Source: Loripinus fragilis
Lineage: Eukaryota; Mollusca; Bivalvia; Lucinida; Lucinidae
Assembly (NCBI GenBank): GCA_964019695.1
Contig: OZ026530.1
Coordinates: 29,618,690 to 29,682,689 of the forward strand
Length of the DNA: 64,000 nt
Reading direction: 5' to 3'
A program made the position numbers and the translations under genes. This document shows, one piece after another, positions 5,560 to 49,970 of the stretch. The notes beneath the pieces were generated by a model, which saw nothing but the letters and a program-made list of their open reading frames with translations, made no database searches and was not told where the DNA came from. Within the stretch, counting starts at the first letter, position 1; every line of letters starts with the position of its first letter.

Positions 5560-5687
5560 CAATATATTCACGTGGCAGACCTACAATGCTCTCTTCATCA
5601 TCAGAAGTGTTTGTAAATATATGGTTGAACACCTCAGTGAAGAATTGCTGATTCAGCAGTTTGAAGCTACCTCACCTAACAATGACG
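5560..5687 (+). CDS. DYM: DYM exon w1 (first visible)
   Basis: The acceptor TTATATTTCAG ends at 5559 and the donor GTGAGT starts at 5688. The first base completes a codon from an upstream exon, and the exon ends in phase 1. It encodes [14 protein letters not shown], then [17 protein letters not shown]. The tryptophan-containing start matches human IFIWQTHNALFII. The 3' 75 nt with the donor are repeated downstream twelve more times, but reading past this donor meets GAG TAG at once, so this is the only usable one. Confidence 0.9.
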
Positions 5688-8600
5688 GTGAGTAGAATAT
5701 GTGTAAATATATGGTTGAACACCTCAGTGAAGAATTGCTGATTCAGCAGTTTGAAGCTACCTCTCCTAACGTTGACGGTGAGTAGAATATGTGTAAATAT
5801 ATGGTTGAACACCTCAGTGAAGAATTGCTGATACAGCAGTTTGAAGCTACCTCTCCTAACAATGACGGTGAGTAGAATATGCGTAAATATATGGTTGAAC
5901 ACCTCAGTGAAGAATTGCTGATTCAGCAGTTTGAAGCTTCCTCTCCTAACAATAATGGTGAGTAGAATATGTGTAAATATATGGTTGAACACCTAAGTGA
6001 AGAATTGATGATTCAGCAGTTTGAAGCTACCTCTCCTAACAGTGACGGCGAGTAAAATATGTGTAAATATATGGTTGAACACTTCAGTGAAGAATTGCTG
6101 ATTCAGCAGTTTAAAGCTACATCTCCTAACAGTGACGGTGAGTAGAATATGTGTAAATATATGGTTGAACACCTAAGTGAAGAATTGCTGATTTAGCAGT
6201 TTGAAGCTACCTCTCCTAATGTGCGTACATGAATTCAGTGAACATCGCTTTTTTGCGTTTATTTCGTTATGTGCGGACTGATCGCACAATGACCATCAGA
6301 ATTTAATATATCTATACACGGCCTAATTGGTGATATTTTTTTCGTTACACAATGTATTGTCAAATGGGCTGTGATATGATGGAATTTGTCCTCATTTGAG
6401 CATCTGCATTTTTTAATTTACCCTAAATGCACCTTTGTACGGACCACTGCCTTTAGTTTACTATCGATGAATAATTATACGGTTTTATAAGACCAAGTAA
6501 CAAGTTAGGAGAAAAGTTAATTATCGTATCAAAATAATTCCACCAAATGCAAATTATGGCCAAAGTTTGGGCTTAAAGAATTTTTGCATACAACAAAATA
6601 TTGAGGCCTTCCCAGTGGGCACCCGTCCGCTTGTTCCTATGAAGTCACGAATCTCTGTGTTCCCCTGTTCCTCAATTTAAAATATTGATTTTCTGTGTTC
6701 CCTGCTCCTTCTCTAATCATCAGATTTTAAATAATTGTCCAACTTGTTTTATTAAATAAATTGAACTTTCTATCTGTTTATTCCAAATACTGATTTGTTG
6801 ACACCAGACAATGCAAAATATGCATGCCAAAACGTAATTCCGAGCATCTATAATTGATAAGAGAAAATAATCACAGGGCTCACCCGTTAGGTGTGATTCA
6901 AGTGAAAAGACTCATCCAATAAAAATAATGCTGAGATCGGAAAGAGAAACTAGTGATGGGGTGGGAATGCGCTTGGAAATAGGTTGAACAAATATATCAG
7001 CGGATGTCATATTTTGTGTTTGAGGTGGCTGAGAACTAATGTTCACGCTAAGTGCATCAATGGCTATACATGGGCGGATCCAGAGGGGGGACAGTGGGTC
7101 CGGACCCCTCCCCCCCCCCTCCCTGAAAAATCACAAGAAATATAGGTTTTTTAGCAATATGGGTCAAAGCTACCAAGCAAGCATTCAATGTCGAGTCATC
7201 ATCGGCACGCTAGCGAATCGCCATTTAAATGGCGTTTTACTGGTGGGCCGATGATGGCCCGCTTATATAGTGGTATTTGGATCCTCCCATCAAAAAAAAC
7301 GTTGCCAAGTTGGACCCCCTCTGGCGACACTTTCTGGATCCGCGCATAGGCTATATATAATGCACCAGTCATTTGTAACCACTGCTTCACCCCAGCCCCT
7401 GAGCAGGACGGGGATATCCATAGCCTGGTGAATGTGCTGTGTTTTTACTTTTTCATTGTCCTCATAATGTGGAGGAAATGTTGTTGTTTGATAGACATAG
7501 ACAAACATGGCAGTGCAGTATAATAGCAGACTGCGGGGATGAACTGTCATGGTTTTGCCAGCTAGCTGTCCCCACAGTGTGGTGGTTACTATGGGGAACT
7601 TCAGACACAAAGTCAAAGTCCTCGACAAGCCTCGGGGCTTGGGCGTGGTCACAAATGACTAGTGCATAAAGACGAAAGAAATTATGCGCCCCAGTCATTT
7701 GTAGCCGCGCCCTAGCCAGGCAAATGCGCTGTTAGTACAGGGTCATACCAGGGACCTGTAGCCAGAAAAGCAAAGTCCCCGCCGTTCCCCGGCTCTGTGG
7801 GCCATAGTTACAACTGACTTATGTATTAGATGATGTAGAGTGCCATCAAACAATGTGACTCCCGTTTATACATCTGATGAACAGCATCCTCATTATATTT
7901 GTTTTTAATATTATTATCTGCAGCACTTAAAGTATTTGTCCTAGAGCTGTCGAGCAAGCAACACAGGCCACGACGCGAGAAAACCTGTCTTCTGGGAGTC
8001 CGACAAAGCGAGTCTCAAACCAGTCTCTTCGGCTAAACAGCTAGCTAGAAAATTTATTTTAGATATGATTCTTCTCTAAGCAGACAACAAAGTTGCTGAT
8101 GAGAACGCGCGGATGCACAAGCTGATCTGCGCCTTGATTGTTACAAATCACCGAAAACAGGTTTTCTCAGTCGCGGTCCAATTGCTGTATGTGTCATTTT
8201 ACCATGAACGCTTAGAAAATAAGATGCGAAATTTGTATATCGTGTAATATGATAACTCAGAATTGTAATTTGCGCAGTCTCTTCAAAGCATTTGCAGTGT
8301 ATATGTAGACATACCAAGAGTTATCATGCTGGTGACCGTTTTTTATCATACAACCTGAGATATACGACAGTAAACATGGTAATCATTGAACTGAATAAAC
8401 CACATGCTACCCATATGAAATACACTGAGGGAAAATAAGGAATTTTCTAAATTGAAAACGACTAAGTTATTTTAATTCACAAGAGATTCCAGACTTATTT
8501 TCCTATCATAAATATTCAAATATGCAAGTGTATATTAGGCGGTGTTTTATTATATGTATGTGCAAAATTTTAGTACAAAATTTTATCATTAAAGACATTT

Positions 8601-11600
8601 TAAAAGAGAAAAACAATGTTCACTGAATTTCTGTATGGACTATAACAATGATGGTGAGTAGAATATGTGTAAATATATGGTTGAACACCTCAGTGAAAAA
8701 TTGCTAATTCAGCAGTTTGAAGCTACATCTCCTAACAGTGACGGTGAGTAGAATATGTCTAAATATATGGTTTTAACACCTCAGTGAAGAATTGCTGATT
8801 CAGCAGTTTGAAGCTTCCTCTCCTAACAGTGACGGTGAGTAGAATATGTGTAAATATATGGTTGAACACCTAAGTGAAGAATTGCTGATCCAGCAGTTTG
8901 AAGCTACCTCTCCTAACAGTGACGGTGAGTAGAGTATGTGTAAATATATGGTTGAACACCTAAGTGAAGAATTGCTGATTCAACAGTTTGAAGCTACCTC
9001 TCCTAACAGTGACGGCGAGTAGAATATGTGTAAATATATGGTTGAACACCTCAGTGAAGAATTGCTAATTTAGCAGTTTGAAGCTACCTCTCCTAACAGT
9101 GACGGTGAGTCATTTATTTGTATACTGAGGGTTCAAAATTTTAAAATATTAGTGCTCATAGAGAAGTCTCTTATTATTTCATGTTGTATTGCTAAGGAAA
9201 GTCTTTCTTGCCTGGTTACTTCTTCATATTTTTATCTGTGAGATTTAAAAAAAAATATTTTTGCACAATATCTGTAACCTGAGTTTTTTTATCTCTCATG
9301 ATTAATATTTGGTATCAGAATGTGGATGACAAAACACAGAAAAGGCATATTGTCATACATGTATTTTTTCATGCTGCTGCAACAGGCCTTTAGTTCTGAG
9401 TTCAAACCAAAAAATTATTTTTCTTATTTCTAAGCCAAAATATATGTTGTGGGTACTCAAAAGAATCATCTCAGTGAGACGGTTCTTTTGCACACCCAAA
9501 ACATATGTTAAAACTGATGGGTAAGAAAATATTTACAATTTTACGCTAAAAATTTTAGTTTATCTAACCCTTTGTGCAAATGAGATACTTCTTGTGAGCA
9601 CCATCGACACCAAATGTAAGTTAACCATTTAGTTTTTGAAAAAAAAAAGGAGCCAAGTGGTAGAGTGCTTGACTCGAAATTGAGGGGTTGTGGGTTTGAG
9701 CCTCACCGGAGGCACTGCATTGTGTCTTTGAGCAAGACATATTATCCTCTGCTTAGTACTGGTTCAACCCAGGAAGACCCATCCAGACATGATTGAAAAA
9801 CTGTTGACTGGGATGTAAAGAATCAAAACAAACAAACAAGTATTAGAAACATATAGAGGATCTTACACAAGTGATCATTCCATATGAAAAAAATTATAAA
9901 ACGAGCCTTTGGCGAGTTCAATAAATTTAATTTGAAATCATCACAAGTGTAAGATTCTGTTTATCATATAACCTTTTGAGTGCAATTTTAAGTTTGTTTA
10001 TTTCCATTAAGATTTGCATTGTTGTAACGGATGTCGTCATGACGTTTCTTGTTCCCACTGAAAGTATTATGTAACGTGTGGTCATAATATTATTTATGAC
10101 ACGACGTTATCCACTGAATAACAGTAATGTCATATGATAAATACATGTATTCACCAATTGCCATTTTTAGGATGAAAATACTTTTTTCTAAAAGGTATGA
10201 ACCAACAACATTGGGCAAGTACATGAGATTTTGTAACTTGTTCCATATGGGCTTCATCGCGAGAAAACCTGTCTTCAGGGTTTCCGACCAGATCACACCC
10301 AAAACAAAGTACACCTGCGGATAATACTCAAAAGTGGGTCTGGTAGTATATAGAGAAAGAAAAAAACAGCCTGTCATGGACTTGCTAGAACATTGCAACT
10401 TCACTTGTTGTAAGTTTAGATATGCTACCTTCCAAAATGCGAATAACAAAAGTGCTGACCAGGCTGCACGAATGTGCAGGCCCATATGATTAAAACCATT
10501 ATTTAAACATACTTCACAGCTATCTAATTAAACTTTGTGTGTAAATTTTGGTTGAAACTTAATCGTCATCCATACTTTGTGTGTGCAAACAGCTAATGCT
10601 TTGTCAAGACTGTGCTAATCCCCAGTCTCATCTGAACCATGGCTGCTTGCCAGAACTTCAGTTAAGAGTGTGTAACAAAAAACTATTTTTTTTATTTTCA
10701 ACCAAAACATATGTTATGTTATGGGTACTCAAATGAGCCGTCTCAATGAGATGGTTCTTTTGAGCACCCTAAAGATAGGTTAAAGCCTATGAGTAAGAAC
10801 AGTTTACAGTATTTACAGTTTTACCGACAAAAAATGTATTTATCTAAACCTGTGCTGCTTACTGATACAATATGTACTATAATCTCATGAGCTGGCTCAT
10901 TTGAACCTTGTATTTTATAGGACAAACTGAAAAGGATGGTCAGACGGCGGTGGGTGAAGATTTTATGAATTCCCTTGTTGAATTAGTTGTTGATGTACCT
11001 GTTTTGTAAGTATTCTTTGATCTTCACACTATCAAATCTTTTGTTTGAGCCTCACCGGAGACAATGTGTTGTGTCCTTGAGCAAGACACTTTATCCTCAG
11101 CTTAGTCCCAGGAAGACAGGAAAATATCCCGACTTGACTAAAATTGTTGACAGGGACGTAAAGCACCAAATCACGTTAATCACAGATCACAGACCGACCC
11201 ATGGCACTATGAACAAGAAGATGGGAGCGCAGTGGCTCAGTGGTAGAGTGCTTGACTCGAGACCGAGAGGCCACCGGTTCGAGCCTCACTGGCATCACTG
11301 CGTTGTGGTCCTTGAGCAAGACACATTTATCCTGGCCTAGTACTGGTTCAACCCAGGAAGACCTGTCTCTGTTTAACTGAAAGATTGTTGATGGGACGTA
11401 AAGAATCAAATCAAACAAAATCCTTGAGCAAGACACATTAATCCTAACTTAGTACTGGTTCAACCCAGGAAGACCCATCCCTATATAACTGAAAGATTAT
11501 TGATGGGACGTAAAGCATCCAAACCATATGTTAAAAATGATGGGTAAGAAAATATTCACTAGAGTACACTGAAATTTTTTGTTTATCTAAACCTATGATT

Positions 11601-14600
11601 AAAATGCGGCAACCAGCAAGATACAGTAGTGGCCAAACTACATCACAGAACTAGGGGGAGCGCAGTGGCTCAGTGGTAGGGTGCTTGACTCGAGACCGAG
11701 GGGCCGTGGGTTCAAGCCTCACTGATGTCACTGCGTTGTGGTCCTTGAGCAAGACACATTTATCCTAGCTTAGTACTGGTTCAACCCAGGAAGACCCGTC
11801 CCTGTTTAACTTAAAGATTGTTGATGGGACGTAAAGAATCAAATCAAACAAAAAGCAGAACTAGGGAAATATACAATTGTATATGTTAACTCTTTCCTTC
11901 ATGAATATTCATGCTAGGATCCACTCACAAGAATGATTATATATAAATAAACTTTCATGTTGATACATAGAACAAAGAAATTACATGTCAGGTCCTCTAT
12001 TGTAGGATCAGATATCATATTTCTACAAGCAAACAGAGTTGACCCTGATCAGGCAGCTCTAGAGCTGCCTGATCTGGGTCTGCTCTGTTTGCAAAAGTGT
12101 TAAAAGGCATTGCTATGAGGTAAAGGGTTAAGGAATCACAGGTTACAATTAGCAGTGCAGTCCCTAAATAACACATATTGTTATAACACAGCTCTGGATA
12201 TAATCTGGTCATGTTGTGGTTCTCAAATTCTTTTAACCATGGAATTTTATAGAGGAATTACAGGAAAAAGACCATGACACATGTTAAAATTGATGGATAT
12301 TGAAGAAAACAGCCCAGTTTTAAGCTCAAAAGTTTTGCTTAGCTGTACAGTTGATTCATATATTGATTTCTCTGTTTCAGAAATTTTACGTATGCCCTTC
12401 ATCTGGAGGCCCTGAACACACTTCTAGTCTTACTGTCAGTACAGATGTTTCAGCCACAGCCGGCGAGTAAATTTCGCATATTCCAGTATATTATGCAGGG
12501 AAAATGGTAGGTTGTAACAGGACTTTAGTTAAGAGTTCGTGACGAAAATTTAGTTTTCTTATATCTGAATCAAAACATATGTTGTGGGTACTCAAAAGAA
12601 CCGTCTCACATTTGTTAAAATTGATCGGTAAGAAAATATTTACAATTTTACTCTAAAATTTTTGGTTTATCTAAACCTGTGTTGTAAGAATTTACATTTA
12701 TCCAACTCTTCTCTGGGAGCACAGTGGCTCAGTGGTAGAGTGCTTGACTTGAGACTTAGGGGCTGTGGGTTCTAGCCTGACTGGCATTACTGTGCTGTGT
12801 CCTTGAGCAAGACACATTAATTCTAGCTAAGTACTGGTTCAACCCAGGAAGACCTGTCCCGGCATAAATGTTGGTAGCGCAGTGGCTCAGTGGTAGAGTG
12901 CTTTACTCGAGACTGAGGGGCCACTGGTTCCAGCCTCACCAGCGGCACTGTGTTGTGTCCTTTAGCAAGACACATTTATCCTTGCTTAGTACTGGTTCAA
13001 CCCAGATAGACTGGTCCCGACATAGCTGAAAAGTTGTTGACTGGGGTATAAAGAATCAAATCAAACAAAAACAAACAAACAAACTCTTCTCAACAGGCCC
13101 AACATGAGAGTGTGTAATTAAAAAAATAATATACCAATTTCTCAAACAAAACAAATGTCATATGCTGTCATAATTTAGGCAGAATGAATAATAAACTGTC
13201 GGAGGTCCTTTCAATTGTTCTGTCCTCAGCCATAACTTAGTAAGAAATGAAGGGACTTAAATGAAACTTATACTAAGTATATATACTGACTGACAAAAGA
13301 AATGCTGCATCTATATTCAAAGTCATGTTGTATACTTTTTTATATATGAGGTAATAAATATGGAATACTTTTCATTTTAATGGCATATTTGTGTTGTACC
13401 TCAAAATGTTCTTACTTACTTACTTAATCCTGGTTTGATATTGAGACTTCAAATAATTTCCCAATTTGTGGGGTAAGCTGCAGTTGGATTGTCTTTCTCA
13501 CACCAGATCTGCAGGCTTATCTGTTCTGGGGATCAATGTCTTCTAGGTCGCACTGATTTCATGCACTTTAACATTTACTTGATTGATTGACCTTCTAACA
13601 TTTCAGTTCAATACATGCGGGTTTAATGGTGAAGACGTTATTACGGAACTTTATCAATCAGGAGAAATGTCCCAGTGAACTGTACAAGAATACGACAGAC
13701 AGTGTCAGTGCAATAGCTAGTGCCACAGCATCATTGGCTTGTAAGTTTTTTGCTTTTTTAGTCCATCAGGGTTCACACATGCTTGAAAAGTACTTGAAAT
13801 TAGAGAACTTTCTTGAAAAGTCCTTGAAATATAAATCTGCCTTGAAAAGTACTGGAAAATCACTAAAAGGCTTTGAAAAGTCCTTGAATTCTACTATTTT
13901 CTGTAGGACTTTGCACTGTTGATAGAGACCGAAATCAGTATAAAATTGTTGTACCTTTATTTGGTGCAGCATATGCTGCACCAAATGTAGGGACAACAAT
14001 TTTATATTAATTTTCCAGTACTAATGTCTCCATTATCTCAGTCTAGCATTTCTGGAGAATTTTAACAATTCGATCAGTATTTGTCAGTAACATTAAGTCC
14101 TTGAAAACTGTAGGAGAGGTTTTTAGAAGTCCTTGAAAAGTCCTTGAATTTTACTCATACTTTCCTGTTTGAGTCTTGTCCATGATGTACTGGTCCATGG
14201 TTAGCGTTAACCCTGTGTATTCTGATGGATTTTCTCATACATATAGATACAATAAGTATGGGGTTGTCCATTTTGCACTTTTAGGGGTCAAAGCTAGAAT
14301 CTTCTGAATTATGATGTATTTTTGTCAATGAAGGTTGTTTTTTAATATCAGCAAACAGTGCAGACCCTTATGAAATTCAGCATTATGCTCAATGAGACGG
14401 TTCTTTTGAGTACCCCAAACACATGTTTAAATTAATGGGTAAGAAAATAATTAAAATTTTGCACAAATAAAATTTCCTTATCTGGACCTAGGCCAGAGTT
14501 GATTCTAGGCTGCGGGAGTGTGATAATCCCGCTATTTTTGCAATATTGGCCCAAAATTTCAAGCTCCCTGCTTAGCTACTTCCTCACTGTGCCAAGATTT

Positions 14601-32600: not shown

Positions 32601-35600
32601 ATACTTTACTCTATCAGAAGGACATGTTTACAATGTTTAGAGCTCATCCAACTTTTCAAGATATTATTGTAAAAATAGATATGGTAAGTGAATCGGTTCA
32701 ACTCAAGCTTGGCGTTAGCGTTACACCATAATCCTAACCTAGTGTATACTTTACTCTATCAGAAAGACATGTTTACTATGTTTAGAACTCATCCAACATT
32801 TCAAGATATTATTGTAAATATAGATACGGTAAATGAATCGGTTCAACACATGCTTGGTGTCAGCATTACACCATAATCCTAACCTAGTGTATACTTTACT
32901 ATATCAGAAAGACATGTTTACAATGTTAAGAACTCATCCAACATTTCAAGATATCATTGTAAATATAGATACGGTAAGTAAATCAGTTCAACTCATGCTT
33001 GGCGTCAGTGTTACACCATAATCCTAACCTAGTGTATACTTTACTCTATCAGAAAGACATGTTAACAATGTTTAGAACTCATCCAACATTTCAAGATATT
33101 ATTGTAAATATAGATACGGTAAGTGAATCGGTTCAACTCATGCTTTGCGTCAAATTTACACCATAATCCTAACCTAGTGTATCCTTTACTATATCAGAAA
33201 GACATGTTTACAATGTTTAGAGCTCATTCAACATTTCAAGATATTATTGTAAATATAGATACGGTAAGTGAATCGGTTCAACTCAAGCTTGGCGTCAGCG
33301 TTACACCATAATCCTAACCTAGTGTATACTTTACTCTATCAGGAAGACATGTTTACAATGTTTAGAACTTATCCAACATTTCAAGATATTATTGTAAATA
33401 TAGATACGGTAAGTGAATCGGTTCAACTCAAATTTGGCGTCAACGTTACACCATAATCCTAACCTAGTGTATACTTTACTTTATCAGAAAGACATGTTTA
33501 CAATGTTTAGAACTCATCCAACATTTCAAGATATTATTGTAAATATAGATACGGTAAGTGAATCGGTTCAACTCATGCTTGGCGTCAGCGTTACACCATA
33601 ATCCTAGCCTAGTGTATACTTTACTATTTCAGAAAGACATGTTTACTATGTTTAGAACTCATCCAACATTTCAAGATATTATTGTAAATATAGATACGGT
33701 AAGTGAATCTGTTCAACTCATGCTTGGCGTCAGCGTGAAACCAAAATCCTAACCTAGTGTAACTTTACTATATCAGAAAGACATGCTTACTATGTTTAGA
33801 ACTCATTCAACATTTCAAGATATTATTGTAAATATAGATACGGTAAGTGAATCTGTTCAAATCATGCTTGGCGTCAGCGTTACACCATAATCCTAACCTA
33901 GTGTATACTTTACTCTATCAGAAGGACATGTTTACAATGTTTAGAGCTCATCCAACATTTCAAGATATTATTGTAAAAATAGATATGGTTAGTGAATCGG
34001 TTCAACTCAAGCTTGGCGTTAGCGTTACACCATAATCCTAACCTAGTGTATACTTTACTCTATCAGAAAGACATGTTTACTATGTTTAGAACTCATCCAA
34101 CATTTCAAGATATTATTGTAAATATAGATACGGTAAATGAATCGGTTCAACACATGCTTGGTGTCAGCATTACACCATAATCCTAACCTAGTGTATACTT
34201 TACTATATCAGAAAGACATGTTTACAATGTTAAGAATTCATCCAACATTTCAAGATATTATTGTAAATATAGATACGGTAAGTAAATCAGTTCAACTCAT
34301 GCTTGGCGTCAGTGTTACACCATAGACCTAACCTAGTGTATACTTTACTCTATCAGAAGGACATGTTAACAATGTTTAGAACTCATCCAACATTTCAAGA
34401 TATTATTGTAAATATAGATACGGTAAGTGAATCGGTTCAACTCATGCTTGGCGTCAGCTTTACACCATAATCCTAACCTAGTGTATCCTTTACTATATCA
34501 GAAAGACATGTTTACAATGTTTAGAGCTCATTCAACTTTTCAAGATATTATTGTAAATATAGATACGGTAAGTGAATCGGTTCAACTCAAGCTTGGCGTC
34601 AGCGATACACCATAATCCTAACCTAGTGTATACTTTACTCTATCAGAAAGACATGTTTACAATGTTTAGAACTCATCCAACATTTCAAGATATTATTGTA
34701 AATATAGATACGTTAAGTGAATCGGTTCAACTCATGCTTGGCATCAGCGTTACACCATAATCCTAACCTAGTGTATACTTTACTCTATCAGAAAGACATG
34801 TTTACTATGTTTAGAACTCATCCAACATTTCAAGATATTATTGTAAATATAGATACGGTAAGTGAATCAGGGTTCAACTCATGCTTGTCATCAGCGTTAA
34901 ACCATAATCCTAACCTAGTGTATACTTTACTCTATCAGAAAGACATGTTTACAATGTTTAGAACTCATCCAACATTTCAAGATATTATTGTAAATATAGA
35001 TACGGTAAGTGAATCAGGGTTCCAGCTGGGCCCTGACAATAGGGAGAAGTGACCTCTCCCTCCCGAAAGATAAGGGAGAAGTGACAGTTAGATAGGGAGA
35101 AGTTATAGTGCAAAATTTAACTTTTTTTGTCAGTTTAGAAGCAAATTAGCCATTACACATACTATTACCATTACATGGAAGAAGAAATACAATGCAGTGA
35201 TAGTAGATTGCAGCTTAAGTTTATGTGGTGACAGAACTAAAAGGAGGCTCCCTAAAAAAAATTTTTTTTTTTAGGGAGACTTCTACTTCTCCCTTGGGCC
35301 CATTTAGGGCGAAACTTCGGCCCCTAGGGCGACTTTTTCGCCCTGGTTGCCCCCTAGCTTATTCACTAAGTGAATGGTTTTCTTGTACAATTTGTGCAGC
35401 TAGTTAGCTACAAGGGGGAGGGAGGAAGGTGGGGTTTGGGGAGGAAGGGGTTTTGGAACAGCCACTGAGGTGATGTTAATGTTATGCAAACTTTTTGTCC
35501 TTTGTGTAAAACTTTTTGTGTAAAACTGATTATTTTCTTATCCATCAATCTAAACATGTGTTTTGGGTGCTCAAAAGAACCATCTTTTTCCCAAATCAGT

Positions 35601-38028
35601 CAATGTAAACCTCATCTGCGTTGGGAATCAATACTTTAGATTTTTAAGGATTTGTCTCCCTTTGAAAGGTACTTCACACTTTTTCATGGCTCCTGTAACT
35701 TTATAAAAGTCTGAAAAATAGCTTTAGTTAACTTGCTGCTGAGTAGCCACATTTGACATCTGCTGATAAACATTGCAAACTGTTTGAATCAAGATCACTA
35801 CCTGACAGATCTGGTCCTGATCTCGATCCAAACCGTTTGACACTCTGATAGTGTTTCTGAGAGAATTTAATGATGAAGTTAATTTTGAAAAGAGTCAGCA
35901 GCCGACAACAAAATAATGAAAAACTACCTAGCATGCAAAGAGTTACACCAACCCCAGTAAATTCTGAAATTTGCGACAATTTTTTCTGCAAATAGGGTTA
36001 GGTGTCTTCTGTGAGTTTGTCACTTTCCCATTGGTATCCTGGGTCAGGTGTGGTACTTGATTGTATGGATTCCTGATCTTTGCACCATTACTTACTTTTA
36101 AAAGACATATTTGCAACCTAAAAATTTGCGACAATGACATGATTTACCTTCATCAGTAAATGACAGAGTGATTTCACCACTCGCCAGGATTTTATTTTCG
36201 TGAAACTTTGCTTGCAGTGAAGTTTCGCAAAAATAAAACCCTCGTGTGGATTTAACTCTTTGCATGCGGGGTAATTTTTCATGCATTTTGTCGTCTGCTG
36301 ATTTTTTCAAAATCATCTTTTTCGAAAATTCTTTCAGGAATACCATCAGTGTCAATCAGTTTGGATCCAGATCAGGCCTGATATTTTGTCAGGCCTGGGT
36401 CCAAACTTATTGCAAGGGATATCAACAGACTTCTCTATTAGACAGAGTTAAAGTAGGTGTGGTTTTCGGAAAGATGAATCAGTTTCTTAATCTTATGCCT
36501 TGGCGATGTGATTTTTGCAGGTGTTATCCTACTTTTCTGGAAAACTTGAACAAAATGGCGGCCATCTGACCCCTCCAGAGGTTCTTGAAGTAATTAAACA
36601 GGGATCTGTACAGTTTAGAAGAGACCGGTTAAAGGTAGGCATTTTATGTTGAGACCATCACAATTCCTTTCATAACAGATAGAAATTAAATCTGAGCCAT
36701 AGAGTGCTTGCATGTATGGGTTTCAAATGCCAAAAATGATGTCAAATAAAAAAAAAAAGGCCATTTATGAATTTTGAACTTGATATTATAACATCGACAT
36801 GTCATGATGAGACTAACTACAGTAAGACCTCGAAAATTCAAACTCCAATTTTTCGAGATACTTGCTAATTTGAAATACAGTTTTGACAAAATGGATTCAG
36901 AGATTAGGGCCTATTTATGAACTATTTTTAAATACTATCAAATAAAAACAAATGTTTTGTGTGCAAAAAACACACACAAAACATATGTTTCACAGGAAAA
37001 AACTTAATAATAATCATTTCCAGCAATTTTGGGAAAAGGCCCCTGGCCAAAATTGGGAAAAAATGGTCAACTTAACATCAAAATTGGGAGAAATTAACGA
37101 CATAGAACATAACAAGGGTAGCAAAATATATCCTCGAAATAAAGTTATTATAGATTGTATTATGTCAAGAATACCACTTAAGCACAAGTGTTTAAGTATC
37201 ATTCTGATACGGGTCATTGTTTCTCATAAGTAGAAGTGGTCTCTAAAAAAAGTGAAAAAACAAACAAACTTTTCTTTATTGGGAAAAACAGACATAGTAT
37301 TGGGAAAAAGAAGGTGGCTATTTTCGATTGTGAATGGGGCCGAAATTGGGTCCCTAGGGAAGGGTAGAAAATCCTCTATTAGTACTGTTTCAACATAGGA
37401 AGATCCACCTCGACATGTCTCAAAAATTGTAGATTTGGACGTAAAGAATCAAACCATGCACTCAAACAATAGGCTTAAAATTACAAAATGCTTATCAGAA
37501 TAACAAACAGGGAAGACCCAGATCAGACTGCTTCTTTAGTCTTATCTGGGTCTGCACTGTTTGCCTAGGCCTTTTTGACAGGGAACTAGTGGGAGCGCAT
37601 CAGCTCAGTGGTAGAGTGCTTGACTCGAGACCGAGGGGAAGCGGGTTTTAGCCTCACAGGCGTCACTGTGGTGTGTCCTTGAGCAAGACACATTAATCCT
37701 AGCTTAGTACTGGTTCAACCAAGGAAGACCAGTCCCTACATAACTGAAAGATTGTTGATGGGACGTAAAGAATTAAATCAAACAAAAAAAACAAACAGGG
37801 AATTAGTGCTTAAGGTTTACCATAAGCGAGATATTGCCAAAGATTATTTCTTACAGAACTTTGGGTTTCTATATTTTCCAGAAATTTCCAGAGCTGAAGT
37901 TTAAATACGTGGAAGAAGAGTCTCCGGAAGAATTCTTTATTCCGTACATTTGGTCGCTCGTGTATCATTCATCAAATATGTATTTCAATGCATCAAAGAT
38001 TATACTGTTTTCATTAAGCTCTTCATGA
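5560..38028 (+). CDS. DYM: Dymeclin gene, 13 coding exons, 5' end outside the window
   Basis: Joined exons: 5560-5687, 10921-11005, 12381-12506, 13607-13740, 18069-18263, 22118-22299, 24935-25060, 26743-26856, 29497-29591, 30733-30853, 31920-32102, 36521-36634, 37882-38028. All introns are GT-AG and every phase matches, giving 1750 nt or about 582 residues plus stop. The product follows human dymeclin from its IFIWQTHNALFII segment to the C-terminus, with matches such as [76 protein letters not shown] and [18 protein letters not shown]. Dymeclin is a peripheral Golgi protein needed for Golgi organisation and secretory traffic; loss in humans causes Dyggve-Melchior-Clausen dysplasia. It is mostly helical, with no catalytic motif. 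About 95 N-terminal residues are missing here. Four exon borders carry tandem arrays of junction copies, and introns are loaded with repeats. I saw no clear polyadenylation signal. Confidence 0.93.
5613..6220 (+). repeat. Exon w1 donor array, left block: 90-bp unit x7
   Basis: Each unit holds about 75 nt of exon w1 (from GTAAATATATGGTTGAAC) plus about 15 nt of intron. Donor-like GTGAGT occurs at 5688, 5778, 5868, 5958 and 6138, and is mutated to GCGAGT at 6048. The seventh unit is cut at about 6220 by the element at 6221-8640 and resumes at 8641. The 90-bp period keeps frame, but every unit has TAG four bases into the intron part. Confidence 0.93.
6221..8640. mobile_element. 2.4-kb TIR element (copy 1) inserted in the DYM exon w1 array
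   Basis: The left end GTGCGTACATGAATTCAGTG and the right end, read on the minus strand from 8640 as GTCCATACAGAAATTCAGTG, form imperfect terminal inverted repeats of about 30 bp. A second copy starts at 56795 with the same left end and keeps the same internal order (TGTGCGGACTGATCGCACAA, then AATGCACCAGTCATTTGTAAC, then CAGACTGCGGGGA). The element sits inside one 90-bp unit of the DYM array, so it is younger than the amplification. Short ORFs inside match no transposase motif I recognise; it looks non-autonomous. I could not define a clean target duplication. Confidence 0.82.
7069..7348. mobile_element. 280-bp MITE nested in the 2.4-kb element
   Basis: The ends CATGGGCGGATCCAGA and (minus strand) TATGCGCGGATCCAGA form inverted repeats. 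The flanks GGCTATA at 7062-7068 and 7349-7355 are a 7-bp direct repeat. The paralogous element near 57875 has a single GGCTATA with nothing inserted, which is a natural empty site. Confidence 0.85.
8641..9115 (+). repeat. Exon w1 donor array, right block: 90-bp unit x6
   Basis: It begins with the second half of the interrupted seventh unit, whose donor is at 8654. Further donor-like sites lie at 8744, 8835, 8925 and 9105, with GCGAGT at 9015. One unit is 91 bp because of an extra T. After 9105 the sequence becomes ordinary intron. Together with the left block the array had 13 units. Confidence 0.93.
9383..9573. mobile_element. Foldback MITE FB-2 (copy 1)
   Basis: FB-2 is a palindrome-centred element. 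From the left it reads CAGG-CTTTAGTT, then CCAAAATATATGTTGTGGGTACTC, then the centre CTCAGTGAGACGGTTCTTTTG; the right arm is AAAACATATGTTAAAACTGA and the end is TTTATCTAACC. Other copies, whole or half, lie near 10651, 11519, 12518, 14390, 17916, 28764, 30257, 35518, 42126 and 51058. The outer ends begin CAGG, which would suit a hAT-derived MITE, but that is inference. Confidence 0.8.
9649..9841 (+). mobile_element. tRNA-derived SINE (copy 1)
   Basis: The head AAGTGGTAGAGTGCTTGACTC resembles a pol III A box region, and GGGTTTGAGCCTCACCG is a B box. The central segment is CTTTGAGCAAGACAT, then GCTTAGTACTGGTTCAACCC. The tail ends GGATGTAAAGAATCAAA with a CAAA-rich run. The family is about 205 bp when full length and is the commonest dispersed repeat here. 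The central CTTGAGCAAG block recalls conserved cores of metazoan SINE superfamilies; I cannot assign it by name. Confidence 0.85.
9842..10650. other. DYM intron sequence, no gene seen
   Basis: It holds a decayed inverted pair (ATAGAGGATCTTACACAAGTG near 9855, AAGTGTAAGATTCTG near 9946) and a fragment GAGAAAACCTGTCTTC near 10262 that is shared with the 2.4-kb elements. No exon-like match to dymeclin lies here. Confidence 0.5.
10651..10853. mobile_element. FB-2 foldback MITE (copy 2, full)
   Basis: The left end is CAGAACTTCAGTTAAGAGTG and the right end is TTATCTAAACCTG. The centre is CAATGAGATGGTTCTTTTGAG. It ends 67 bp before DYM exon w2. Confidence 0.8.
10921..11005 (+). CDS. DYM: DYM exon w2
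   Basis: The acceptor CTTGTATTTTATAG precedes it and the donor GTAAGT follows. It is phase 1 in and phase 2 out. It encodes [20 protein letters not shown] and then LVVDVPVL, aligning with the human stretch ending MQLITDIPLL. Confidence 0.88.
11041..11177 (+). mobile_element. SINE (5'-truncated, with internal loss)
   Basis: It starts at the B box TTTGAGCCTCACCGG and keeps the CTTGAGCAAGACAC core. It loses the segment around ACTGGTTCAACCC and ends GGGACGTAAAGCACC. Confidence 0.75.
11221..11420 (+). mobile_element. SINE (full length)
   Basis: It runs from GGGAGCGCAGTGGCTCAGTG to AATCAAATCAAACAAAA with intact A box and B box (GGTTCGAGCCTCAC). Confidence 0.88.
11421..11524 (+). mobile_element. 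SINE 3' half, abutting the previous copy
   Basis: It starts inside the core at TCCTTGAGCAAGACACATTA, directly after the tail of the copy at 11221. This suggests a truncated insertion into the A-rich tail or a partial tandem duplication. Confidence 0.8.
11519..11597. mobile_element. FB-2 half element
   Basis: Only one arm is present, from AACCATATGTTAAAAATGA to TTTATCTAAACC. Confidence 0.65.
11652..11852 (+). mobile_element. SINE (full length)
   Basis: It starts GGGGGAGCGCAGTGGCTCAG and ends CAAATCAAACAAAAA. The B box reads GGGTTCAAGCCTCAC. Confidence 0.88.
11890..12125. repeat. Dispersed element with hairpin core (copy 1, lacking a SINE)
   Basis: It runs from TTCATGAATATTCATG to AAAAGTGTTAAAAGGC. 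The core palindrome is GATCAGGCAGCTCTAGAGCT, then GCCTGATC. The paralogue at about 51800-52225 carries a SINE at the point corresponding to 11910, so this copy shows the pre-insertion state. Confidence 0.78.
12381..12506 (+). CDS. DYM: DYM exon w3
   Basis: The acceptor TTTCTCTGTTTCAG and the donor GTAGGT bound it. It is phase 2 in and phase 2 out. It encodes [20 protein letters not shown], then [20 protein letters not shown], matching human ISVEAISTMVVFLSCQLF. An FB-2 MITE begins 12 bp past the donor. Confidence 0.9.
12518..12679. mobile_element. FB-2 foldback MITE immediately after a DYM donor
   Basis: The left end CAGGACTTTAGTTAAGAG starts 11 bases after the first intron base, and the right end is TTATCTAAACCTG. 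The centre is partly deleted (AACCGTCTCACATTTG). Confidence 0.8.
12714..12867 (+). mobile_element. SINE (3'-truncated)
   Basis: The head and core are present and the copy ends at GACCTGTCCCGGCATAAATG, where the next SINE begins. The B box is damaged (GGGTTCTAGCCTGAC). Confidence 0.82.
12869..13084 (+). mobile_element. SINE (full length)
   Basis: It lies head to tail with the previous copy, starting GGTAGCGCAGTGGCTCAG. It has an extended CAAA tail and a B box of GGTTCCAGCCTCACC. Confidence 0.85.
13085..13606. other. End of DYM intron, no element recognised
   Basis: AT-rich intron with no tandem period. It ends in the acceptor CTAACATTTCAG. Confidence 0.5.
13607..13740 (+). CDS. DYM: DYM exon w4
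   Basis: The acceptor CTTCTAACATTTCAG and the donor GTAAGT bound it. It is phase 2 in and phase 1 out. It encodes [20 protein letters not shown] and then [15 protein letters not shown]. The first part is nearly the human LVKTLLYNFIRQEK. Confidence 0.93.
13768..14165. mobile_element. TIR repeat with TTGAAAAGTCCTTGAA motifs (copy 1)
   Basis: It starts AGGGTTCACACATGCTTG and contains many CTTGAAAAGT(C/A)CTTGAA pieces. A hairpin sits around GGTGCAGCATATGCTGCACC, inside a longer inverted pair ending in ATAAAATTGTTGT and ACAACAATTTTAT. The related copy at 26871-27283 has matching outer ends AGGGTTCA and TGAACCCT. Here the right end is less clear. Confidence 0.72.
14390..14493. mobile_element. FB-2 half element
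   Basis: It runs from CTCAATGAGACGGTTCTTTTG through AAACACATGTTTAAATTAATG to CCTTATCTGGACCTAGG. The left arm is missing. Confidence 0.7.
14494..17709. mobile_element. 3.2-kb element with perfect 16-bp TIRs, carrying a nested tandem-repeat element
   Basis: The ends CAGAGTTGATTCTAGG (14494) and CCTAGAATCAACTCTG (to 17709) are perfect inverted repeats. Inside, 15307-17612 is a different repeat family. The host element alone is about 0.9 kb and shows no transposase motif. A short inverted-repeat start of CAG suits hAT, but I see no matching target duplication. Confidence 0.75.
15307..17612. repeat. Repeat family starting GCTCACCAGAGCCGAAGG with an internal dimeric tandem array
   Basis: The start TTAGCTCACCAGAGCCGAAG and the GTCCGTCCGTGCGGCCGTCC tract mark a repeat I believe is widespread in bivalve genomes. 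From about 15569 it holds units beginning TTGTGACCACTCTAG at roughly 15569, 15744, 15904, 16083, 16243, 16421, 16578, 16754, 16921 and 17097. Spacing alternates between about 177 and 158, so the real period is a dimer near 337 bp (one half with CCGACCAGGGACTTATGAG, the other with TCGGCAAGATTCCATCAC). It ends near CATTGTGAGCGATCGTTGCC. Confidence 0.82.
17916..18037. mobile_element. FB-2 foldback MITE just upstream of DYM exon w5
   Basis: The centre AACCGTCTCAATGAGACGGT is a perfect palindrome. The right arm ends TATATCTAGACCTG, 31 bp before exon w5. The left arm is lost. Confidence 0.72.
18069..18263 (+). CDS. DYM: DYM exon w5
   Basis: The acceptor GTTTTCTTTTTCAG and the donor GTAGGG bound it. 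It is phase 1 in and phase 1 out. It encodes [20 protein letters not shown], then [19 protein letters not shown], then [14 protein letters not shown]. Human has LWTVFTLGG and SPLANQSLLLLLVLAN with NPYRQAIMSFKNTQ. Confidence 0.94.
18294..18490. mobile_element. FB-1 foldback MITE (inside duplication copy 1)
   Basis: The landmarks are GTCGTCTGCC, the palindrome CAGATCAGGCCCGACATTTT, then GTCGAGCCTGATTTGG, and CAGCAGCAGACGGCAAAA. Confidence 0.78.
18660..18850. mobile_element. FB-1 foldback MITE (inside duplication copy 2)
   Basis: It is the duplicate of the element at 18294, differing by scattered substitutions, and ends GTCAAAGAGTTAG. Confidence 0.78.
18853..19085. mobile_element. Foldback MITE FB-3 (single copy)
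   Basis: It has the landmarks TTAGTAGCCTATATTGCAAAC, the palindrome GATCAGACTGCTCC with GGAGCAATCTGATC, then TCTTCCATGATAAAA and ATGCAGCAGATGTAAAAAGC. The same order occurs near 39319-40310. Confidence 0.72.
19099..22117 (+). repeat. Exon w6 acceptor array: 115-bp unit, 19 decoy acceptors before the real one
   Basis: Each unit has about 34 nt of intron tail (ATATTCTCTCTTTATACAG) and about 81 nt of exon w6 head. Copies of the exon start lie at 19133, 19248, 19363, 19478, 19593, 19708, 19823, 19938, 20053, 20169, 20284, 20399, 20514, 20629, 20743, 20855, 20975, 21888 and 22003. Two have AAG instead of CAG (20743, 20855) and one has TAG (21888). None has a downstream donor, and reading on shifts frame because 115 is not a multiple of three. 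Units at 19478-19822 recur at 19823-20167 as a three-unit higher-order block. A hAT MITE splits the array at 21085. Confidence 0.94.
21085..21874. mobile_element. 790-bp hAT-type non-autonomous transposon
   Basis: The terminal inverted repeats are TAGGGGTGCAACGATA and TATCGTTGCACCCCTA. The flanks TCTCTTAA at 21077-21084 and 21875-21882 are an exact 8-bp target duplication, the hAT hallmark. Subterminal CGTATTGCGATA repeats are present. No transposase frame is seen. It lies in the intron part of one array unit, and removing it with one flank restores a normal unit. Confidence 0.93.
22118..22299 (+). CDS. DYM: DYM exon w6 (functional copy after the array)
   Basis: The acceptor TTTATATAG and the donor GTAAGA bound it. 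It is phase 1 in and phase 0 out. It encodes [40 protein letters not shown] and then [19 protein letters not shown]. This is the only unit that runs on into [13 protein letters not shown], matching human SDQATLLLYTLLHQN and ARTDMENL. Its acceptor ends TATAG rather than the TACAG of most decoys. Confidence 0.93.
22190..22680 (+). repeat. Duplicated 3' part of exon w6 with donor (379-bp unit)
   Basis: The piece from about 22569 to 22678 repeats the exon end ([17 protein letters not shown], then SRTNIDQL) and is followed by GTAAGA at 22679, like the real donor at 22300. The 379-bp unit includes a hairpin MITE (GATCAGCTGGCTTCTGAAGA, then AGCCAGCTGATC) at 22392-22455. It has no acceptor and is probably intronic. 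A further decayed piece of the unit's intron part lies near 23500-23935. Confidence 0.85.
22890..23480. repeat. Palindromic repeat, two copies in direct order
   Basis: Copies at about 22890-23075 and 23280-23480 each contain GGATAGAAAAATTC or a close variant, the centre CTCGGCAAGCCTC, and the opposite arm GATTTTTCTATCC. Arms end in AAGAATCCATTATT and ATGATAGATTCTTAT. Confidence 0.75.
23549..23620. repeat. Hairpin repeat copy (CAGCTGATCAGGATCCACAC)
   Basis: It resembles 22392-22455, with GATCAGCTGCTTTCTGAAAA facing GGCAGCTGATC. Confidence 0.7.
23955..24915. repeat. A/T-rich minisatellite, ~20-bp unit with ~263-bp higher-order period
   Basis: The unit is close to CCACAATTTTGCCATATTT. A marker pair, an ACACAATCGTGTCATATTT segment followed by an AGTTATG(T/C)CACATTTT segment, recurs at about 24304, 24566 and 24830, showing that a block of roughly 263 bp was copied. 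Because the unit avoids stops, ORFs of 60-180 codons open on both strands; they are low-complexity and I do not consider them genes. The array stops only about 20 bp before the acceptor of DYM exon w7. Confidence 0.92.
24935..25060 (+). CDS. DYM: DYM exon w7
   Basis: The acceptor GGTTCATTTCAG and the donor GTAAGT bound it. It is phase 0 on both sides and encodes 42 codons: [20 protein letters not shown], then [19 protein letters not shown]. Human has LEILYHVEERNSHHVYMALI, then ILLILTEDDGFN. Confidence 0.95.
25448..25612. mobile_element. Foldback MITE with TTTATTAAACTCGTTG arms
   Basis: TTGAATTTATTAAACTCGTT faces AACTCGTTTAATAAATTCAA, and GATAAAATGC faces GCATTTTATC, around the centre TCGGCAAGCCTCG. 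Outer ends are AGGATCTCACATTCATG and CATGTAAGATCCT. Confidence 0.78.
25978..26107 (+). mobile_element. Decayed SINE
   Basis: Only GTACTGGTTAATGG, GGCCCAGGAAAA and GACTGGGACATAAAGCA remain, with a CAAACAAACAAA tail. Confidence 0.55.
26140..26742 (+). repeat. Exon w8 acceptor array: 121-bp unit, five decoy acceptors
   Basis: Each unit has about 24 nt of intron (TTGTTTTTCCTGTCTTCCAG) and about 97 nt of exon head. Decoy exon starts lie at 26259, 26380, 26501 and 26622, and a diverged, shorter first one at 26165 after TTTATTCCAG. The unit at 26259 has an internal TAA (CTAATATAA). The rest read out of frame into the next unit, since 121 is 1 mod 3. None has a donor. Confidence 0.93.
26743..26856 (+). 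CDS. DYM: DYM exon w8 (functional copy)
   Basis: The acceptor CTGTCTTCTAG (TAG, while the decoys have CAG) and the donor GTAGGT bound it. It is phase 0 on both sides with 38 codons. It encodes [20 protein letters not shown], then [18 protein letters not shown]; human has SERVLTEISLGSLLILVV, then IRTIQYNMTRTR. Only this unit continues into ISRMR and a donor. Confidence 0.94.
26871..27283. mobile_element. TIR repeat with CTTGAAAAGT motifs (copy 2), 14 bp past the exon w8 donor
   Basis: The ends AGGGTTCACACATGCTTG and TTTGTATGAACCCT are short inverted repeats. An inner inverted pair AAATTGTTGTGTCTTTGG and CAAAGACACAACAATTT matches the layout of the copy at 13768. Confidence 0.78.
27331..28705. 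repeat. Repeat family starting TATACCCCCCGCAAAC with internal tandem units
   Basis: It begins with a TACCCCCCGCAAACTTTG head and a GTCCGTCTGTATGTCCGTGC tract. A 255-bp block starting near GTAACGTTTTG is present at about 27412 and 27667. Then units of about 190-250 bp beginning GGGCCGATCAACTCCTACCA recur near 27614, 27869, 28109, 28302 and 28492. The head resembles a repeat I associate with bivalve genomes. Confidence 0.8.
28764..28865. mobile_element. FB-2 core palindrome
   Basis: AAAACATATTTTTTGGTACTC faces GAGTACTACAAAATATGTTT with a shortened centre (AAAATTTTGAG). Confidence 0.65.
28913..29097 (+). mobile_element. SINE (diverged)
   Basis: It starts GGGGAGCACAGTGGCTCAG. The B box is degraded and the tail is GGGACATAAAGCATCAAG. 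Confidence 0.75.
29497..29591 (+). CDS. DYM: DYM exon w9
   Basis: The acceptor is a long T tract ending TTTTCAG and the donor is GTAAGT. It is phase 0 in and phase 2 out. It encodes [20 protein letters not shown], then [11 protein letters not shown]. Human has [19 protein letters not shown]. Confidence 0.96.
29567..29885 (+). repeat. 41-bp tandem duplication of the exon w9 donor region, split by a MITE
   Basis: CTTATGTATCACA at 29567 recurs at 29608. The second copy resumes after the MITE as GTATCACAAAGATTAG with donor GTAAGT at 29878 and the same following bases (AACTGACACC against CATTAACACC). It thus creates a second 5' splice site. Confidence 0.88.
29621..29861. mobile_element. 241-bp MITE with 8-bp target duplication
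   Basis: The ends CATGGGTGAAAGTTTTCAGG and (minus strand) ATGGGTGAAAGTGCAAAATT form inverted repeats. GTATCACA flanks both sides (29613-29620, 29862-29869). A hairpin GAGGCTGACTTTC, then GAAAGTCAGCCTC lies inside. Confidence 0.88.
30257..30435. mobile_element. FB-2 foldback MITE
   Basis: It starts CTAGGACTCCAGATAAGAG with arms ACCAAAACATATGTTGTGGG and ACCCAAAACACATGTTTAAA. The centre ATCGTCTCGATGAGACGAT is a perfect palindrome. Confidence 0.78.
30733..30853 (+). CDS. DYM: DYM exon w10
   Basis: The acceptor TTTTGCTTTTCAG precedes it. The donor GTAATT is weak but is fixed by phase and homology. It is phase 2 in and phase 0 out. It encodes [19 protein letters not shown], then an acidic Gln/Glu-rich variable stretch ending EQDY; human has LFSLLSKKHNKVLEQATQ and then PDY. 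Confidence 0.87.
30854..31919. other. DYM intron, nothing recognised
   Basis: No tandem period and no known element ends were found. An open frame of 67 codons near 31053 has no recognisable similarity. Confidence 0.5.
31920..32102 (+). CDS. DYM: DYM exon w11 (first unit of the donor array)
   Basis: The acceptor ACTTTATTTTCAG and the donor GTAAGT bound it. It is phase 0 on both sides with 61 codons. It encodes [39 protein letters not shown], then [20 protein letters not shown]. Human has [20 protein letters not shown] and [17 protein letters not shown], then FRTHPSFQDI. Only this unit has the acceptor and the first 17 codons. Confidence 0.96.
31971..35010 (+). repeat. Exon w11 donor array: 145-bp unit x21
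   Basis: Each unit has about 130 nt of exon tail and about 15 nt of intron (GTAAGTGAATCGGTT). Donor positions are 32103 (real), then 32248, 32392, 32539, 32684, 32829, 32974, 33119, 33264, 33409, 33554, 33699, 33843, 33988, 34133, 34278, 34423, 34568, 34713, 34858 and about 35005. Variants include GTAAAT (32829, 34133), GTTAGT (33988) and a destroyed site TTAAGT (34713). Shared variants show that units 32539-33264 were copied as a block of about nine units (1304 bp) to 33843-34568. Reading past any donor soon reaches TAA. Confidence 0.95.
35011..35420. mobile_element. Element with AGGGAGAAGTGAC and TTCTCCCTTGGGCCC ends
   Basis: It begins right at the end of the array with GGTTCCAGCTGGGCCC and several GGGAGAAGT motifs. 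It ends with the opposite ACTTCTCCCTTGGGCCC and a GCGAAACTTCGGCCCCTAGG segment. It looks like a small TIR element, but its borders are approximate. Confidence 0.55.
35518..35586. mobile_element. FB-2 half element
   Basis: It keeps TTATTTTCTTATCCATCAAT and TTTTGGGTGCTCAAAAGAAC, then breaks off. Confidence 0.6.
35727..35945. mobile_element. FB-1 foldback MITE
   Basis: It runs from TTAACTTGCTGCTGAGTAGC to CTAGCATGCAAAGAGTTA, with a GAGTCAGCAGCCGAC subterminal motif. The central palindrome is interrupted. Confidence 0.75.
36252..36451. mobile_element. FB-1 foldback MITE
   Basis: It begins TAACTCTTTGCATGCGGGG and GTCGTCTGCTGA, has a central CAGGCCTGATATTTTGTCAG, then GCCTG, and ends ACAGAGTTA. 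It ends 69 bp before exon w12. Confidence 0.8.
36521..36634 (+). CDS. DYM: DYM exon w12
   Basis: The acceptor GATTTTTGCAG and the donor GTAGGC bound it. It is phase 0 on both sides with 38 codons. It encodes [11 protein letters not shown], then [20 protein letters not shown], then RLK. Human has ISFFSSRLLQ and ERVLEIIKQGV with DRLK. Confidence 0.93.
36635..37374. other. DYM intron, little recognised
   Basis: It contains one short palindrome AACAAATGTTTTGTGTGC facing ACACACAAAACATATGTTT (36948-36988), an FB-2-like core. Nothing else is supported. Confidence 0.45.
37375..37468 (+). mobile_element. SINE 3' fragment
   Basis: It runs from TTAGTACTGTTTCAAC to GGACGTAAAGAATCAAACC. The head is absent. 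Confidence 0.65.
37589..37796 (+). mobile_element. SINE (full length)
   Basis: It starts GTGGGAGCGCATCAGCTCAG. The B box is altered (GGGTTTTAGCCTCAC) and the tail is rich in CAAA. It lies between an intronic hairpin (37508-37565, GATCAGACTGCTTC) and exon w13. Confidence 0.85.
37882..38028 (+). CDS. DYM: DYM exon w13 (terminal, with stop)
   Basis: The acceptor TATATTTTCCAG precedes it. It encodes [40 protein letters not shown], then ILFSLSSS and a TGA stop at 38026-38028. Human ends [30 protein letters not shown] and then a short variable tail. The 3' untranslated region starts here. No AATAAA is seen before the repeat at 38064. Confidence 0.95.
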
Positions 38029-38063
38029 TAGTGAGAAACCAACATTACAGTGAGACTTATTGT

Positions 38064-38308
38064 TTAACACTGCATGCTGGGTAATTTTTGCTGTCGTCTG
38101 CTGACTTTTTTCAAAATAACTTTTTCAAAAAATTCATTCAGGAACACAATCAGTATGTCAAACAGTTTGGACCCAGATCAGGACCGACAGAATGTCGTTT
38201 GGACCCAGATCAGGACCGACAGAATGTCGGTCTTGATCTGGGTCCAAACTGTTTGCAATGGTTATCAGCAGACGTTAAAAGTTGCTGCTAGCAAGGGAAG
38301 AGTTAAAT
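38064..38308. mobile_element. FB-1 foldback MITE (duplication copy 1)
   Basis: The palindrome centre is enlarged: GGACCCAGATCAGGACCGAC occurs twice before the opposite arm GTCGGTCTTGATCTGGGTCC. Confidence 0.82.
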
Positions 38309-38481
38309 TTTATCTAAAGAAATTTGATCTTTTAAATTAATTGTAGGAGAATTCCTCATACAAGGTATTTGGTCACTCTTATATCATTCATCGAATATGT
38401 ATTTCAATGCATCAAAGATTATACTGTTCTCATTAAGCTCATCATGATAGTGAAAAATCAACATTACAGTGAGACTTGTTG

Positions 38482-38697
38482 TTAACTCTTTGCATGCTGG
38501 GTAATTTTTGCTGTCGTCTGCTGACTTTTTTCAAAATTGACTTTTTCAAAAACCTCTTTCAGGAACACTATCAGTGTAACAAACAGTTTGGATCTAGATC
38601 AGGACCGACATTCTGTCAGTCCTGATCTGGGTCCAAACTATTTGCAAAGGTTATCAGCAGATGTTAAAAGTTGCCGTTAGCAAGGAAAGAGTTAAAA
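38482..38697. mobile_element. FB-1 foldback MITE (duplication copy 2, best preserved)
   Basis: It runs from TTAACTCTTTGCATGCTGGG to GGAAAGAGTTAA. The arms GGATCTAGATCAGGACCGAC and GTCAGTCCTGATCTGGGTCC flank a short loop. Confidence 0.85.
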
Positions 38698-38740
38698 TTT
38701 TATTTAAAGAAGTTAACTTCTCTGGAAAAAATCTGTATTC

Positions 38741-40310: not shown

Positions 40311-40430
40311 TTTGCTTAAAGGGTTAAATGGTTAATTTTCTTGAAGAATTCTCTTTTCAATACATATCATTCATTGAATATTGTGTATCATATATGTAAT
40401 ACATAATTTATTTCATTCATAGATATAGTG

Positions 40431-40627
40431 GAGGGCAGTGGGTCAGTGGTAAAGTGCTTGACTCAAGATCGAGGGGTTGCGGGTTCGAGCCTTATCGGCT
40501 GCACTGCATTGTGTCCTTGAGCAAGACACGTTAATCCCTGCTTAGTACTTGTTCAACCCAGGGAGACCCATTCCTTTATAACTGAAAGATTGTTGATGGG
40601 ACGTAAAGAATCAAATCAAACAAAACA
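40431..40627 (+). mobile_element. SINE (full length)
   Basis: It starts GGAGGGCAGTGGGTCAGTGG, with B box GGGTTCGAGCCTTATC and tail AATCAAATCAAACAAAAC. Confidence 0.86.
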
Positions 40628-49929: not shown

Positions 49930-49970
49930 ATAATCTTACTACAAAAAAATGTTTCTATCCTCGTCGCCAA

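Follow-up and report, generated by a model that had tools for sequence, protein, structure and literature searches.

Minisatellites that span exon-intron boundaries have been described under the name of mirages in two lancelet globin genes, with Adh3 cited as a further case (PMC3087553), and similar repeats have been noted in lancelet PGBD5, alongside a citation of troponin C (PMC3902484). The lancelet data suggest that regular splicing is undisturbed by mirages, and a gain of introns from them has been proposed (PMC3087553). In humans, internal tandem repeats occur at the exon-intron boundaries of paralogs lying in segmental duplications (PMC2812944). Tandem duplication is also discussed as a source of introns (PMC4974935, PMC2891723, PMC3443670), and in potato a cryptic site within the copied exon part came into use through a junction-spanning duplication (PMC4974935). 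Here we analyze the dymeclin gene, a housekeeping gene, of the bivalve Loripinus fragilis in a 64-kb window (64,000 nucleotides; assembly GCA_964019695.1, contig OZ026530.1, positions 29,618,690–29,682,689 of the forward strand), in which seven exons are accompanied by tandem copies of one or both of their edges. These are very probably mirage-type minisatellites, that is, exon-edge segments that were tandemly duplicated and whose extra copies are spliced out and drifting.

Joining of exons across the window yielded 13 exons on the + strand (5560–38028), which form an open reading frame of 582 residues to the stop; residues 2–560 match the Pfam Dymeclin model (E = 2.2e-184). Of 7992 candidates scored in a protein comparison, 1956 gave matches, and the closest among the 120 best is a protein of 678 residues on a 2162-bp contig (92%); the listed matches further include proteins of Ruditapes philippinarum (83%), Mya arenaria (79%) and a lancelet (53%). 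The alignment to the 678-residue relative starts at residue 97 of that protein and runs through 582 residues without a gap, which backs all of the exon joins; the preceding residues of the relative have their counterpart upstream of the window. The gene is a bivalve dymeclin, and on the strength of the Pfam match and the gapless alignment the 13-exon dymeclin gene proposed in an initial annotation of this DNA stands.

To find copies of exon edges, each exon with 60-bp flanks was compared by BLAST with the window, and all 26 exon edges were compared with 3 kb on the intron side against 60 shuffles. Edge-spanning copies were recovered at 8 of the 26 edges, belonging to 7 of the 13 exons: the donors of E1, E5, E6, E9 and E11, the acceptors of E6 and E8, and the 3' end of E13. 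Thus, 7 of the 25 splice junctions (five donor, two acceptor) have adjacent junction-spanning copies, and the eighth copied edge closes the last exon and comprises the coding end, the stop and downstream DNA. The remaining 18 edges showed no edge-spanning copies above the 60 shuffles within 3 kb; among them, the significant match at the E7 acceptor lies in an AT-rich repeat of the intron without crossing the junction, and that at the E11 acceptor is borderline (z 3.6). Accordingly, neither search found edge copies of E2 (10921–11005), E3 (12381–12506), E4 (13607–13740), E10 (30733–30853) or E12 (36521–36634), and E7 (24935–25060) is free of junction-spanning copies, an AT-rich 20-bp intronic array stopping just upstream of it.

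Four of the copied edges carry large arrays, all on the + strand. Intact E1, the first exon in the window (5560–5687), has AG/GT bounds and an open frame and is part of the Pfam match. Its donor edge is repeated with a 90-bp period in 12 units (5612–9110), each of 76 nt of exon and 14 nt of intron, with 11 extra donors (9 GT and 2 GC); a 2.4-kb insertion splits the array, so that the pieces at 6152–6219 and 8643–8667 are one broken unit. The acceptor edge of E6 forms an array of 20 units with a 115-bp period (19118–22206), the intact copy being the last, and all of its 19 extra acceptors are AG. The acceptor edge of E8 forms an array with a 121-bp period (26163–26843) made up of five full units and a degenerate one, with four extra acceptors and an acceptor-like site in the degenerate unit; intact E8 (26743–26856) is its final unit. 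The longest array, that of the E11 donor edge (31972–35015), has 21 units with a 145-bp period, each of 131 nt of exon and 14 nt of intron, and its 20 extra sites are 19 GT and one TT. In these four arrays roughly 70–90% of the unit is exonic and the intron tails are short.

The other edges carry single copies on the same strand. The donor edge of E5 (18069–18263) and its intron form a 362-bp tandem pair with one extra donor (18134–18863), and the donor edge of E6 (22118–22299) has a single copy 379 bp downstream (22568–22692), so that intact E6, copied at both edges, lies in the middle of its cluster. The donor edge of E9 (29497–29591) has a short duplication split by an element (29570–29904), with a second donor GT at 29878; the resemblance is weak here (75% across 49 columns, BLAST E = 9e-4), yet the alignment crosses the junction. 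Finally, E13, the terminal exon (37882–38028 for its coding part, up to the stop TGA), has its 3' coding end and the DNA beyond it repeated 419 bp downstream (38367–38714), in a copy that holds no splice junction. E6, E8, E9 and E11 (31920–32102) are gapless against the relative, and E6 is in frame with both E5 and E7. Taken in the order E1, E5, E6 acceptor, E6 donor, E8, E9 and E11, the extra splice sites number 11+1+19+1+4+1+20 = 57, of which 54 are GT or AG, two GC and one TT, the degenerate E8 site being left out of the count.

This inventory modifies several statements of the initial annotation. Its eight copied exons are eight edges in seven exons, E6 being counted at both, and its rule that the copied piece always spans an exon-intron junction applies at seven of the eight edges, the E13 copy being the exception. 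The sizes of 20 and 21 units that it gave for two arrays were reproduced, but the 90-bp array has 12 units rather than 13, and the six units of the 121-bp array are five full ones and a degenerate one. Its estimate of about 50 decoy splice sites compares with the 57 counted here. No listed copy holds both original edges of any exon, which rejects whole-exon duplication of the alternative-exon kind, as the annotation had rightly argued; its further assertion that extra units never carry both splice sites is correct as regards the authentic sites but overlooks a cryptic acceptor in 19 of the 20 extra E11 units (see below).

The dymeclin arrays share the boundary-spanning anatomy of the lancelet mirages of BflGb6, BflGb9, Adh3 and troponin C, and of the similar repeats of PGBD5. 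As in mirages, both 5' and 3' boundaries are affected (five donor, two acceptor), many though not all units keep their splice signals (54 of 57 as GT or AG), and there are signs of tandem-repeat turnover in the form of block repeats in the E6 and E11 arrays. The anatomy thereby agrees with the testable defining features of a mirage. In BflGb6, units at the ends of the cluster escape homogenization, a trait that is not definitional: the end units of the E6 array diverge from their consensus by 0.102 and 0.070, whereas those of E11 (0.007 and 0.021) and E1 (0.022 and 0.024) diverge no more than the inner units. Unlike in the lancelet cases, the host is a bivalve, seven junctions of one gene are affected and the arrays reach 21 units. 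The human paralog repeats (PMC2812944) are likewise minisatellite expansions over exon-intron boundaries, and the potato case, alongside which ATP2A1 is listed, is likewise a junction-spanning duplication; unlike the latter, dymeclin has no sign of intron or exon gain, its product being gapless against the relative. Length instability (6 and 3 units in the two haplotypes of BflGb6) and regular splicing are reported for the lancelet mirages, and variability between paralogs together with transcript evidence for novel introns for the human repeats, whereas the dymeclin arrays are known from one genomic sequence alone.

The initial annotation had held that no such system was described; the lancelet mirages (PMC3087553, PMC3902484) are one, so that what is new here is the mollusc host and the scale, the kind itself having already been described in lancelets. 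Our search of the open-licence literature, with a few phrases and through listings rather than full texts, found no report of such repeats in bivalves. With the dymeclin arrays, exon-boundary minisatellites, known to us from lancelets and human paralogs, are also found in a mollusc, where they sit at many exons of a single gene. They offer a natural test of how the spliceosome deals with as many as 20 rival copies of one splice site, and of whether arrays of this kind give rise to new exons or introns.

What can be seen directly in the window is tandem copies in the DNA, each set with a single intact exon, together with near-neutral decay, block duplications and insertions that came later. As the units contain both intron and exon DNA, their source was DNA or unspliced RNA and not spliced RNA. 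We envisage that segments of about 42–420 bp, by chance covering one exon edge, were tandemly duplicated in DNA, probably by slippage or repair, and that four of these duplications may have grown into arrays via unequal exchange. A duplication covering one junction leaves a complete exon with its splice site on the exon side and renders the extra units intronic; under exon definition, the acceptor and donor closest to each other would then be paired, and as no other pair gives the normal exon, splicing would ignore the extra sites and the extra units would be spliced out and then drift. That the intact exon lies upstream for copied donors and downstream for copied acceptors follows from the geometry of one-junction tandem duplication. 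The rule of the initial annotation that the intact exon sits at the outer end is therefore forced by geometry and fails for E6, where it is in the middle.

The history of the clusters is consistent with this course. Units 4–6 of the E6 array recur as units 7–9 (d 0.000–0.010), and units 5–9 of the E11 array recur as units 14–18 (d 0.000–0.028), a pattern of block repeats predicted by unequal exchange. The E1 array is interrupted by the 2.4-kb insertion (~6219–8642, ends approximate), which has terminal inverted repeats (inner inverted repeat 14/16) and a candidate 3-bp TAA target duplication seen by eye only, the script having resolved none. The E6 array contains an element (21085–21874) with inverted ends matching at 16/16 positions and an 8-bp target duplication, TCTCTTAA, a pattern that makes it a putative hAT-like element. 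The E9 pair is split by an element (~29621–29862) for which a 7-bp target duplication is the second-ranked solution. Since the insertions split the E1, E6 and E9 clusters, duplication came first and insertion later, and insertions in three clusters combined with block repeats in two indicate that the duplications are old. At the joins, inspection by eye revealed only short shared letters as microhomology.

Genome assemblies are known to be error-prone in arrays of near-identical units, and the clusters could on that account be assembly or haplotype artefacts. This is hardly credible here: full units lie up to 15% from their consensus, insertions break up three clusters, a clear target duplication flanking one of these insertions, and the copies occur at eight edges with different periods. 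The exact copy numbers of the arrays may nevertheless be off. We also considered whether a mobile element had produced the copies at E5, the E6 donor and E13, as palindromic repeats lie between the copies: three GATCAG...CTGATC hairpins adjoin these copies. However, such hairpins are common; simple matching finds 15 in the window, including those at 18762, 22398 and 38597. Furthermore, at E5 and E13 the hairpins are also inside the second copy, and the stretch between the E6 copies has a relative further downstream, so that plain tandem duplication suffices.

Returning to mirage-type duplication, the extra units look near neutral, given that their exon and intron parts diverge alike, that they hold nonsense changes and that read-through into them meets stops. 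Divergence of the decoys from consensus is 3.4% in the exon part and 2.7% in the intron part for E1, 3.2% and 3.8% for E11, 7.2% and 6.1% for the E6 acceptor, and 3.4% and 1.3% for E8, the last figure being one change in 80 intron cells, a sample too small for comparison. The decoys also carry stops and one-base gaps. The 77 coding changes confined to a single unit comprise 25 synonymous, 47 nonsynonymous and 5 nonsense changes, a synonymous share of 32% against the 25–27% expected at kappa ~2–2.4 (P = 0.15 for these singletons at kappa 2); kappa was estimated at ~2.4 from 70 transitions and 58 transversions. Reading on to any of the 11 extra E1 or 20 extra E11 sites encounters an in-frame stop, after 44 or 76 residues. 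Selection keeping the decoy splice sites, considered separately, is not evident, 3 of 54 splice dinucleotides having changed in the four arrays. With its roughly equal divergence, stops, gaps and block duplications, the locus supports the initial annotation's picture of repeated local expansion that is near neutral as long as one full exon survives.

Some E6 decoys hold the A and D of the relative at positions that read L and E in the intact exon, which implies a mixed history of decoys and intact edge. We asked if decoys overwrite the functional edge, making the array-covered exon parts evolve faster, and saw no such effect: residues differing from the relative are 17 of 173 in array-covered parts and 29 of 409 in the others, and changes derived on the lineage of the window are 4 and 11, respectively (P = 1.0), with 11 array-covered and 14 other differences assignable to neither lineage.

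Several observations weigh against the explanation by chance duplication and neutral drift. At kappa 1 the decoys have an excess of synonymous changes, both among singletons (P = 0.038) and among shared changes (P = 0.016), and the shared changes still lean toward synonymous at kappa 2 (P = 0.052). Counted from the unit consensus, intact units have 6 synonymous and 3 nonsynonymous changes and decoys 44 synonymous and 84 others, a contrast in the expected direction that is not significant (P = 0.073). When splice sites are scored with a small matrix built from the gene's own sites (n = 13 for acceptors), most decoys of the E6 and E8 acceptors outscore the intact site: the E6 decoys score 7.5–15.2 (eight of them at 12.3) against 10.0 for the intact acceptor, and the E8 decoys 13.8–14.5 against 12.1. 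The spliceosome in general favours a close acceptor-donor pair, and the intact acceptor and donor are the closest pair at each copied exon; splicing would have to favour the intact E6 and E8 acceptors despite their lower scores, and we infer the silence of the extra sites from the sequence. Finally, self-BLAST detected 22 tandem loci in the window, merged or split by hand to 15 events in the gene. Random placement with the same unit lengths would put 1.8 of these across a junction on average, and 6 are observed there (P = 0.004), an enrichment for which uniform neutral placement gives no account.

The last result could mean that exon edges are singled out by some mutational or selective process, for instance repair tied to transcription or splicing, or an aid to exon recognition from repeated splice sites, such that edges expand more than introns. 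Against 1.3 expected, events covering exactly one junction are also enriched (P = 0.0009), and among the nine events judged by eye, without a repeat library, not to be transposon-derived, six span a junction against 1.0 expected (P = 0.0001); the E9 copy, below the length limit, was omitted and E13 was counted as non-spanning. The largely exonic units of the four large arrays point the same way. Still, we regard edge targeting as unlikely: the enrichment is suggestive only, because the test is post hoc, the window was picked for this very trait and the event lists were made by hand and eye. Moreover, purifying selection can set a minimum intron tail, as a shorter one would break the functional site, and with 3 of 54 changed the decoy splice dinucleotides are not clearly better kept.

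The splice-site scores also bear on the possibility that the arrays serve as a source of new exons or introns, with E11 units being spliced as 66-nt cassettes of 22 codons. The exon part of 19 of the 20 extra E11 units contains a cryptic acceptor scoring 6.9–14.0, compared with 2.9–13.2 for the gene's own acceptors scored leave-one-out, and the donors of these units score up to 12.1. Between them lies a 66-nt stretch, in phase with E11 and E12, that is kept free of stops in 19 of the 20; AG, GT and the 66-nt length are all kept in 17. This stretch is slightly less diverged (2.6%) than the remainder of the exon part (3.9%; P = 0.076), and the potato case provides a mirror geometry (PMC4974935). 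Its distinct changes, 11 nonsynonymous and 4 synonymous, are nevertheless near neutral and give no sign of coding use. The scores come from a matrix of only 13 acceptors, and the protein of the relative lacks the extra 22 residues. At the same cut-off, no donor is found in the decoys of E6 or E8, and among the E1 units just two contain an acceptor, weak in both cases (5.3 and 6.2). We therefore consider such cassettes quite unlikely. The same low probability attaches to a bolder combination, in which tandem duplication in the clam lineage would be truly edge-biased and mirages would be a reservoir of in-frame cassette exons; were it true, the E11 array, in which 17 of the 20 extra units contain a ready 22-codon exon, would capture exon birth in progress.

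Other repeats occur both inside and outside the gene. Between E4 and E5 lies a 338-bp tandem array (15565–17143) whose units have TTCTTGCAGG-like acceptor motifs and are possibly transposon-internal repeats, and a 91-bp tandem array of 17 copies (53266–54813) is found outside the gene. By eye, a short repeat resembling transfer RNA (tRNA), GGGAGCGCAGTGGCTCAGTGGTAGAGTGCTTGACTCGAGAC, and its variants were noted at 9650–9840, 11224–11860, 12714–13070, 37590–37790 and 40430–40620. Likewise by eye, open frames on the – strand upstream of E1 (634–1217) resemble fragments of the reverse transcriptase of long interspersed nuclear elements, and a single open frame of 1446 residues on the – strand (45595–49935) resembles a retrotransposon Gag-Pol polyprotein. 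The sole Rfam match above the gathering score in the window is a tRNA-like stretch on the + strand (51817–51888).
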